Shown here: positions 29,276-38,407 of the stretch, in pieces | Layout: every line of letters begins with the position of its first letter | Position numbering within the stretch: the first letter of the stretch is position 1 | NCBI GenBank assembly: GCA_030066355.1 | Contig: JASJBU010000054.1 | Location: 1-39,686 of the forward strand | DNA from: Gammaproteobacteria bacterium | GTDB lineage: Bacteria; Pseudomonadota; Gammaproteobacteria; Chromatiales; Chromatiaceae | Length of the DNA: 39,686 bases | Reading direction: 5' to 3' | Made by a program: the position numbers and the translations under genes | Notes under the pieces: generated by a model | The model's database searches: none | What the model was told of the DNA's origin: nothing | Seen by the model: the letters and a program-made list of their open reading frames with translations, nothing else

Positions 29276-31984
29276 ATGTCAGCATCCAAGCCCTTTGTCC
29301 TGGTGGACGGTTCTTCGTATCTGTTTCGTGCTTTTCATGTTCCCAACCTGCAGGCATTGACCAATTCCAAGGGCGAACCGACTGGTGCCATCATGGGCGT
29401 GGTCAACATGTTGCAGCGCCTGTTGAAGGAATACGATCCCGACCATATGGCGGTAGTGTTCGATGCACCGGGCGGTAGTTTTCGCAATGAGATCTATCCC
29501 GAGTACAAGGCCAACCGCCCCCCCATGCCTGAGGAACTGCGCTGCCAGATAGAACCCTTGCACGATATCATCCGCGCCATGGGGCTGCCGTTGCTGGTGA
29601 TCGAGGGGGTGGAAGCGGACGATGTCATCGGCACTTTGGCCAAGCAGGCCAGTGAACTCGGTATGGATACCCTGATCTCCACCGGGGACAAGGACATGGC
29701 ACAATTGGTCGATCAGCATGTGAGCCTGGTCAACACCATGTCCGAGACCTTTACCGATCGGCAGGGGGTGATCGATAAGTTCGGTGTCACACCGGAGCAG
29801 ATCATCGACTATCTGGCCCTGGTGGGGGATACCTCTGACAATATCCCTGGTGTACCAAAATGCGGACCGAAAACTGCCGCCAAGTGGCTCAACGAGTACG
29901 CTACGCTGGAAAATCTCATGGCCCATGCTGACGGGATCAAAGGCAAGATCGGGGAAAACCTGCGGGCAAGCCTGGAGCAACTGCCGCTCTCCAAGGAGCT
30001 GGCCACGATCAAGCTCGATGTGGAGCTGGAAAAGGGTCCTCAGGAGTATCTGCCGGAACAACCGGATAGCGAACGACTGCGGGAGCACTACACCCGTATG
30101 GAGGCCAGCCGACTGCTGTCGAGCCTGGAAGACGGGGGTGAGTACCCAACTCAAGCAACAGCCCCCCGTGTGGCGGCGGACTATGAAGTGCTGCTCGACG
30201 AACAGCGCTTTCTGCAGTGGTTGCAGCGACTCGAGGATGCCGAGCTGTTCGCCTTCGACACCGAGACCACCAGCCTGGAATACATGCAGGCGGAGCTGGT
30301 GGGTGTCTCCTTTGCAACGGAACCGGGCTATGCCGCTTATGTCCCGGTGGCCCATGATTATCCTGGTGCTCCACAACAGCTTCCGCGAGAGTGGGTGCTT
30401 ACTAAACTGAAGCCGTTATTGGAAAATCCGGCACGGAAAAAGGTCGGACAGAATCTCAAATATGACATGAGCGTGTTGGCCAATTATGGAATCGAACTGC
30501 AAGGTGTCACCTTCGATACCATGCTTGAATCCTATGTGCTGGATTCCACGGCTACCCGCCACGATATGGACTCCCTGGCGAAGAAATACCTGAACCACGA
30601 TACCATTCACTTCGAGGATATCGCCGGCAAGGGCAAGAAACAGCTGACCTTCAATCAGATCGACTTGGAACAGGCCGGGCCCTATGCGGCGGAGGATGCG
30701 GACATCACCCTGCGTCTGCATCAGACCCTCTGGGGGAGACTGGCAAGTGAGGAATCATTATCGAATCTGCTCACTGACTTGGAGGTTCGCCTGGTTCCGG
30801 TGCTCTCCCGCATGGAACGTAATGGGGTACTCATCGACACTGAGATGCTCAATCAACAGAGCCGGGAACTGGCCCAGGGCATGCACGATGTGGAACAAAA
30901 AGCTTATGAGATTGCCGGGCACAATTTCAACCTGGGGTCACCCAAACAGATCGGTGAGATCTTTTTCAACGAACTGAAGTTGCCCGTGGTGGCCAAGACG
31001 CCGAAAGGGGCCCCTTCCACCGCCGAATCGGTGCTAATGGAACTGGCGGAGCAGGGCCATGAGCTGCCTGCGCTGATCTTGGAGCACCGCAGCCTGTCCA
31101 AACTGAAGTCCACCTATACGGACAAACTGCCGGAGATGATCGATCCCGGCACGGGGCGGGTGCACACTTCTTATCATCAGGCGGTGGCGGCGACCGGTCG
31201 GCTTTCCTCTTCGGATCCCAATCTGCAGAACATACCCGCAAGGACTGAGGCAGGCCGGCGTATCCGCCAGGCGTTCATCCCTGAGCCCGGCTGGAAGATG
31301 GTGGCCGCAGATTACTCCCAGATCGAGCTGCGCATCATGGCCCATCTTTCCGGGGACCAGGGTCTGCTGTCGGCCTTTGCCGAAGGCAAGGATATCCACC
31401 AGGCCACCGCCGCGGAGGTGTTCGGTGAAACCTTGGATCAGGTGACGGCGGATCAGCGGCGCTCGGCCAAGGCGATCAACTTCGGTCTGATCTACGGCAT
31501 GTCCGCCTTCGGTCTGGCGAAACAGCTGGGCATAGAGCGCAACGCCGCCCAGGAATATGTAGACCTCTATTTTCAGCGTTATCCGGGGGTCAGGGAGTTC
31601 ATGGAGCGTATCCGCGCCGAGGCGCATGACATGGGATATGTGGAGACCCTGTTCGGGCGACGTCTCTATCTGCCCGAGATCAATGCCCGCAACCACCAGC
31701 GCCGCACAGCGGCGGAGCGGACCGCAATCAACGCACCGATGCAGGGGACCGCCGCGGACATCATCAAACGGGCGATGTTGGCGGTGGACGACTGGCTGCA
31801 ACGGGATCGACCGGCGGCGCGGCTGTTGATGCAGGTTCATGATGAATTGGTTCTGGAGGTCAAGGAGGATATGCTGGAGGATGCCTGTGGAGAACTGGTC
31901 GGACACATGGAAACGGCCGCTGAACTCTCCGTGCCTTTGGTGGTGGATCTGGGAGTCGGGGATAACTGGGATGAGGCGCATTGA
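29276..31984 (+). CDS. polA: DNA polymerase I
   Basis: 5'-3' exonuclease ([14 protein letters not shown]), 3'-5' exonuclease ([11 protein letters not shown]), and polymerase motifs ([46 protein letters not shown]). Confidence 0.98.
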
Positions 31985-32151
31985 GCACGCCAATCTGGAA
32001 ACGCAGCCGGTCCTTACGCTATGCCATCTACGCTTGTTTGGGACTGCCTTTGCTGTGGTTCAAGCTCTTTGAGGGTTTGATTTTGCTCCTATTGGTCGCC
32101 TTTGTTGTGGAGTTCGCCTGTTTTCCGGGCAAAAATGCCTCGAGGGAATGA
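31981..32151 (+). CDS. Possible small membrane protein, 56 aa, TTG start overlapping the polA stop
   Basis: Own translation: [56 protein letters not shown]. Hydrophobic core with positive N-terminus; purine-rich GATGAGG just upstream. Confidence 0.35.
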
Positions 32152-32252: not shown

Positions 32253-32281
32253 GGAACTTTCGAATCATCCACCAGTCATAA
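32253..32281 (+). promoter_or_regulatory. SigmaE/AlgU-like promoter candidate upstream of the polA-engB sRNA
   Basis: GGAACTT (32253-32259), 16-nt spacer, TCATAA (32276-32281). Confidence 0.55.
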
Positions 32282-32282
32282 A

Positions 32283-32406
32283 CTGTACGTCGTACGACAG
32301 ACGGGCTGCTTTCCTCCCTTGCAGCCCACACTTCCCGGTAACCCCATCCGGGGAGATCCGGCCCCATCTGCTTTTCCCCTTTAGGCAGTGGGGCCTCCTT
32401 TTTTTT
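32283..32406 (+). ncRNA. Candidate trans-acting sRNA in the polA-engB intergenic region (positional analogue of Spot 42/ErsA)
   Basis: Four successive hairpins: CTGT(A)CGT-CGT-ACGACAG (32283-32300); GGGCTGC-TTTCCTCCCTT-GCAGCCC (32303-32327), loop complementary to SD sequences; CCCC-ATCC-GGGG (32342-32353); and a terminator. ~120 nt, no plausible ORF. Confidence 0.72.
32360..32406 (+). terminator. Rho-independent terminator of the polA-engB sRNA
   Basis: GGCCCCA(T)CTGC-TTTTCCCCTTTAG-GCAGTGGGGCC, then TCC and an 8-T run. Confidence 0.88.
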
Positions 32407-32409
32407 ACC

Positions 32410-33012
32410 TCAATGTTCTCCCAGGTCAAACCAGCCATCGAGTACCCGATGGGCCTCGTCGATCCCCAGTTTCTTGGGTGAAGAAAAGAGCTGGACAGTG
32501 ATCTCGGGTTGGTCATCGAAGGCTTTGCGAATCTGTAGCAGGGTATTGCTGGCGGCCCCCCGCTTCAGTTTATCGGATTTGGTCAGGAGTATATGGGTTG
32601 GCAGGCCGTAGTGAATATTCCACTCCAGCATCTGCATGTCGAATTCTTTCAACGGATGGCGGGTATCCATCAGGAGAATCATGCCGCGCAGACAGGTCCG
32701 GTGTTCTATGTAGTCTGCCAGGGCGCCCTGCCATTGCCTTTTGATCTTTTCCGCCACCTTGGCGAAACCATAACCGGGCAGGTCAACCAGGCGACGCTGC
32801 TCATCCAGTTCGAAAAAGTTCAATAATTGAGTACGGCCTGGTGTCTTGCTGGTGCGCGCCAGACTCTTTTGGTTGCACAGGGTATTGAGTGCACTGGATT
32901 TGCCAGCATTGGAACGGCCAGCCAAGGCGACTTCCAGGCCTTCATCGGTAGGGGCTTGGTTGAGTCTCGCTGCGCTCGTCAAAAAGTGCGCCCGATGATA
33001 GTAAGGGTTCAT
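32410..33012 (-). CDS. engB: Ribosome biogenesis GTPase EngB/YihA/YsxC
   Basis: [63 protein letters not shown]. Confidence 0.96.
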
Positions 33013-34781: not shown

Positions 34782-35330
34782 TTAGAAATTGGGTTTTTCC
34801 GGTGCGTCCTGGTACATCTGGACGCTGTCGTTGATCTCCTGTTTGGCCTCATCGACACCATACCAGCCGTCCACGCGCACCCATTTGCCTTCGTCCAGAT
34901 CTTTGTAGTGTTCGAAGAAGTGCGAGATACGATTGAGCACCTCACCGGACAGGTCGCGGAATGTCTGCACGCTGCGGTAGGTCTTGCACAGTTTGTCCAC
35001 CGGCACTGCCAGCACCTTGGCGTCGTCACCTGATTCATCTGTCATCTTCAGAACCCCGACCGGCCGGCATCTGATTACTGAACCCGGGATCAGTGGGTAA
35101 GGGGTCAAGACCAGGACGTCCACCGGGTCGCCATCCGCGGAGAGGGTGTGGGGGACATAACCGTAATTGCAGGGGTAGTGCATGGCGGTGGACATGAAAC
35201 GGTCGACGAACATCGCGCCGGTATCCTTGTCCAGCTCATATTTCACCGGGTCGGAGTTGGCCGGTATCTCGATGATGACATTGATCTCATTGGGAAGGTT
35301 GGAGCCTGAGCTGACTCTGTCCAGGTTCAT
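34782..35330 (-). CDS. ppa: Soluble (family I) inorganic pyrophosphatase
   Basis: [62 protein letters not shown]. Confidence 0.96.

Positions 35331-36355: not shown

Positions 36356-38407
<2,052 letters not shown>

Follow-up and report, generated by a model that had tools for sequence, protein, structure and literature searches.

A putative sigmaE-type small RNA gene between polA and engB, apparently one member of a broad gammaproteobacterial family with ErsA, sX13 and anti-hemB

What occupies the interval between polA and engB in this genome, and is it related to the small RNAs (sRNAs) already known from the same position in other bacteria? The window, the whole 39,686-nucleotide stretch analysed here (contig C187), comes from a genome that is 82% complete. 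Its host is a marine sulfur bacterium, with Candidatus Thiodiazotropha (lucinid symbionts, 75-78% EngB protein identity) and Sedimenticola (71-73%) as nearest named relatives. polA, encoding DNA polymerase I, lies at 29276-31984 on the + strand, and engB (yihA/ysxC), encoding a ribosome biogenesis GTPase (TIGR03598, 241.9 bits), lies at 32410-33012 on the - strand. Between these convergent genes, at 32253-32406, is what is very probably an independent non-coding sRNA gene of sigmaE type, specifying a C-rich-loop repressor from an ancient polA-engB family to which sX13, ErsA and anti-hemB also belong. Elsewhere in the window, a 56-codon TTG-start frame (31981-32151, +) shares bases with the stop codon of polA; its product would be small and hydrophobic, and no Pfam match was found for it. 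A soluble inorganic pyrophosphatase (34782-35330, -) and a membrane proton-pumping pyrophosphatase (36356-38407, -), both named from sequence only, are encoded close together.

The gene begins with a sigmaE/AlgU-type promoter at 32253-32281 (+), comprising a -35 element GGAACTT (32253-32259) and a -10 element GTCATAA (32275-32281), which can also be read as GGAACTT-N16-TCATAA with the last motif at 32276-32281. The predicted transcript start, at about 32286-32290, falls within a short 5' hairpin (32283-32300, +) that is found in most relatives with varying sequence. Three further hairpins follow on the + strand. Hairpin 1 (32303-32327), supported by folding and covariation, has a perfect 7-bp stem formed by GGGCTGC (32303-32309) and GCAGCCC (32321-32327) around the DNA loop TTTCCTCCCTT (32310-32320); in the RNA this loop, UUUCCUCCCUU, includes CCUCC, as in the anti-Shine-Dalgarno sequence of 16S rRNA. 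Hairpin 2 (32331-32355), read as CTTCCCGG-TAACCCCAT-CCGGGGAG, presents the C-rich loop UAACCCCAU on a covarying predicted stem. Hairpin 3 (32360-32406), visible in both letters and fold, is an intrinsic terminator in which 32360-32366 and 32368-32373 pair with 32383-32395 around the DNA loop TTCCCCTTT (UUCCCCUUU in RNA), and eight T residues at 32399-32406 supply an eight-U tail. A 128-nt stretch folds with a minimum free energy of -56.2 kcal/mol compared with -35.1 +/- 3.4 kcal/mol for dinucleotide shuffles (z -6.2; none of 200 as stable). The sequence-only reading from which this work started had given the letters and positions of promoter, hairpin, terminator and T-run exactly; its string of hairpins is likewise present, although it had not singled out the middle C-rich hairpin, hairpin 2. 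No ATG was found in the transcript, and a small peptide was rejected as the gene product; one TTG frame of 21 codons opens where the loop of hairpin 1 closes. A bidirectional terminator was ruled out as well, the T-run being present on the + strand side only.

The element is conserved well beyond this genome. engB loci were collected from 97 genomes, representing 62 genera of the GTDB family to which the window belongs, and about 30 of them carry a GAACT promoter, C-rich hairpins and a terminator between polA and engB. The RNA is 84-88% identical to the Thiodiazotropha copies over 112-116 nt, whereas the end of engB, where enough of it could be aligned, is 64-71% identical and the upstream spacer is barely alignable. 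The covariation that the sequence-only reading had proposed to look for was found in related loci: in a MAFFT alignment unfitted to structure, 15 of 21 base pairs show double changes, with 49 double-change cells against 14.2 +/- 3.9 in shuffled alignments and 4-12 in slid controls. In a fitted alignment of 36 sequences the figures rise to 19 of 21 pairs and 134 cells versus 35. All seven pairs of the hairpin 1 stem covary while UCCC in its loop is 88-100% conserved, and the hairpin 2 stem covaries around a retained CCCC loop. Overall, the UCCC/CCCC loop cores are 81-100% conserved at most positions and are the best conserved internal segments, whereas the stems vary; variable, covarying stems with conserved loops are the pattern expected if the loops do the work. 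In two Thiodiazotropha relatives (L006 and L007), the -35 element and the stop codon of polA share bases (TGAACTTT), such that the sRNA promoter begins inside polA.

The promoter is conserved as well. The motif GAAC[TC]-N14-17-[AG]TC occurs upstream of 85 of 124 distinct copies (shuffled mean 1.7, maximum 6) and in 34 of 945 random windows from those loci. Spacing is identical in 71 of the 83 copies measured, and the consensus is tGAACTTT ... GTCttA, which is of the sigmaE/AlgU type. The window's own genome encodes rpoE, rseA and rseB in order, with RpoE cut by a contig end, and it also encodes Hfq. The earlier claim of a sigmaE-dependent promoter is thus borne out in the letters and in the regulatory genes present, and transcription of the gene under sigmaE control is probable.

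How far the family extends was examined with a covariance model, R2, built from the 36 sequences of the window's GTDB family and containing no Pseudomonas or Xanthomonas sequence. In the window's own genome, only one site scores strongly with R2 (72.6 bits, E 3e-18), the runner-up having E 0.2. Across the class it matches 160 of 369 gammaproteobacterial genomes and 123 of 271 genera. With polA positions determined independently of R2, a match follows polA on its own strand, at a distance of 32-1388 nt, in 75 of 135 genomes, among the matches listed, where chance would place about 0.03 such genomes (1.5-kb target, roughly 3-Mb two-stranded genome). Most matches without a nearby polA face engB in the 29 class-wide loci checked. 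Together, the polA-side and engB-facing matches tie the gene to the polA-engB site and indicate that it keeps one partner after the two have separated. A second model, R3, drew on 66 sequences, none of them from the window's family, and recovered the window with a score of 56.8 bits (E 3.3e-12 in 117 kb); this lends support but falls short of full independence, because the R3 alignment was fitted with R2. Weak R2 matches in other Pseudomonadota (E 6e-6 to 7e-4) have no known context, and therefore a weak match alone proves nothing. These include L250, L255, L256 and L257, with neither polA nor engB beside them within the fetched stretch, and L255 also weakly matches ar14; alphaproteobacterial matches, which lack an adjacent polA or engB, were not counted.

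Some lineages carry the gene in several copies. Two genomes of one genus have four tandem copies downstream of polA (L187, G266:C33, 348-1106; L190, G373:C8, 357-1294), nearly all with their own GAAC-type promoter, and at least two copies are also present in G117, G264, G371, G220, G224 and G429. In all, the family is matched in roughly 40% of the sampled gammaproteobacterial genomes, mostly with a promoter of envelope-stress type. What had been noticed as a local finding is a real sRNA gene, but it is no local oddity: it is one member of a very large family.

Which of the known sRNAs does it resemble? When the region was searched against Rfam with E values up to 10, only sX13, Pxr and a microRNA model (mir-1296) were returned, and the latter two were taken as chance matches. 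Judged by model score, sX13 is the only named Rfam match in the right gene context: RF02232 scores 21.8 bits (E 0.16), below its gathering score of 50, and is collinear over model positions 1-115. In Xanthomonas, sX13 is encoded 175 bp downstream of polA, forms three stems with 4C/5C loops, does not depend on Hfq and represses mRNAs that carry a G-rich motif close to the start codon (PMC3771888). Like the window RNA, it lies just past polA on the same strand and has about 115 nt and three stable stems with C-rich apical loops. The match also holds in the opposite direction, as R2 recovers sX13 genes with E values of 3e-6 to 1e-5. The two differ in that regions upstream of sX13 lack the standard GAACTT-GTC promoter present in the window. 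In a scan of the class with the Rfam sX13 model, the matches L098-L100 had no nearby polA or engB and are apparently due to chance.

ErsA (Pseudomon-1) shares with the window RNA the polA-engB locus convergent with engB, a GAACTT promoter of sigma22 type and C-rich loops, including that of the terminator, and it is sigma22-dependent (PMC5819304; PMC7565897). By the sigma22/sigmaE (AlgU) criterion used for ErsA, the window's promoter reads GGAACTT-N15-GTCATA, and the cognate sigma operon is present in the genome. With the ErsA model (RF01719, gathering score 50) the window gave no match up to E 10, yet R2 picks out the gene that Rfam assigns to ErsA in each of nine Pseudomonadaceae loci checked (29-35 bits, against 127-139 bits for RF01719), each of which adjoins polA and/or engB. 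In a tenth Pseudomonas (G257), R2 gave a match, of 25.7 bits, only when a short stretch was searched. When aligned to R2, ErsA shows no counterpart of hairpin 2, and the three-hairpin layout of the window is closer to sX13. The original proposal of a divergent, ErsA-like, sigmaE-dependent anti-Shine-Dalgarno sRNA outside Pseudomonas stands as far as sequence can carry it, with the qualification that the likeness to ErsA appears through R2 and not through RF01719.

A third named family, anti-hemB (RF02837, gathering score 49.5), does not match the window itself, and its model scores 44 and 41 bits in two loci of the window's GTDB family (L035 and L043). R2 in turn matches betaproteobacterial anti-hemB genes, which face engB or, in one case (G405, L199), lie 65 nt past polA. 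Both RNAs have a hairpin with a UCCCUCCCUGA-type loop and a terminator; the anti-hemB model is shorter (81 positions) and lacks the 5' part. The tandem copies of L187 score with the sX13, anti-hemB, ErsA and ar14 models, and when the named families were aligned together with the window's group, 172 cells changed on both sides versus 43 +/- 6 when shuffled, a figure that leans towards pairing since the alignment was fitted. By cut-off the window RNA is in no Rfam family, but by these scores it appears to fall within a broad polA-engB family that includes ErsA, sX13 and anti-hemB.

Other accounts of the locus can be weighed against this evidence. The polA-engB site might have been filled repeatedly by unrelated sRNAs converging on C-rich loops, without common descent with ErsA or sX13. 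C-rich loops do occur in unrelated sRNAs such as RNAIII and HPnc5490 (cited in PMC3771888), and both the missing hairpin 2 of ErsA and the nonstandard promoter region of sX13 would fit such an origin, as would the presence at the same locus of Spot 42, which matches neither R2 nor R3. We nevertheless regard convergence as unlikely, given collinear matches in both directions over the full model length, a common strand and position, a promoter with its spacing shared by most lineages and intermediates that score with several Rfam models at once, as at L187. Spot 42 itself, to whose synteny the sequence-only reading had appealed, does occupy the same position in enterics; orthology with it is the least probable of the readings and already largely refuted, as RF00021 does not find the window even at E 10, neither R2 nor R3 hits the spf locus of E. 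coli, and its promoter is of another type. Position is all that the two have in common.

It is also highly improbable that the element is a mere structured 3' end of polA, terminating polA or polA and engB and having no regulatory role. Its place after polA and its strong terminator would fit such a role, but it has its own conserved promoter, its loops are conserved beyond what the stems need, copies persist beside engB where polA is not adjacent, nearly all tandem copies carry a promoter, the T-run is on one strand only and known sRNAs belong to the same family. A general growth brake, in which the CCUCC loop mimics the 16S anti-Shine-Dalgarno sequence and titrates many mRNAs, would draw on a different precedent, the betaproteobacterial 'toxic' or double-hairpin sRNAs of RF02278. 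These contain CU-rich reverse complements of ribosome-binding sites in their loops, and one of them slows growth when overexpressed (PMC5688073); they have two hairpins and are scattered in the genome away from polA-engB. The loop CCUCCCUU closely resembles the 3' end of 16S rRNA, and duplex energies are similar for most of the start regions tested in the window. sX13, however, shares this architecture and yet regulates a defined set of 63 genes, with effects that are specific to the loops (PMC3771888), and we consider a general brake quite unlikely.

The favoured reading, a loop-acting repressor of the polA-engB family, suggests how the RNA might work. Under envelope stress, sigmaE would be released from RseA and turn on a + strand sRNA of about 115-120 nt, running from the sigmaE (RpoE/AlgU) type promoter to its own intrinsic terminator. 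Its three GC-rich hairpins would keep the CUCCC/CCCC loops open for pairing with Shine-Dalgarno regions rich in G, or with runs of G that closely follow the start codon, and ribosome entry would be blocked, as has been shown for sX13. The anti-Shine-Dalgarno loop by itself has little specificity, and duplex energies of the three loops over 12 start regions are too unspecific to name a target. Among those regions, the best duplex of the terminator loop is at hfq (-12.1 kcal/mol). In the genome's own hfq (L260), which begins ATGTCTAAGGGG, positions +9 to +12 are GGGG; the sX13-responsive motif of Xanthomonas hfq sits at about this place, 9-12 bp beyond its ATG (PMC3771888). This site is only suggestive of hfq as a target because GGG is already dictated by the conserved MSKGQ beginning of the Hfq protein and few regions were tested.

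Taken together, the synteny, loops, promoter and model matches argue that one ancestral sigmaE-driven sRNA has probably resided at polA-engB since early Gammaproteobacteria (Burkholderiales included). Of its descendants, ErsA, sX13 and anti-hemB would be the best known; the remainder would comprise the window RNA together with well over a hundred copies not yet catalogued, and in some lineages the gene would have formed tandem arrays. What is new here is the breadth of this family and the bridge between three RNAs that are separate in Rfam; our literature search found no mention of ErsA and sX13 together. The discoverers of sX13 considered it specific to Xanthomonadaceae and asked whether comparable sRNAs are encoded at polA in other bacteria (PMC3771888), a question that can now be answered yes, in sequence space. 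The R2/R3 family provides a covariance model usable for annotation. If the common origin is true, ErsA, sX13 and anti-hemB, which have been studied separately, would become one comparative system, in which it could be tested across lineages whether the C-rich loops of one regulate the targets of another.
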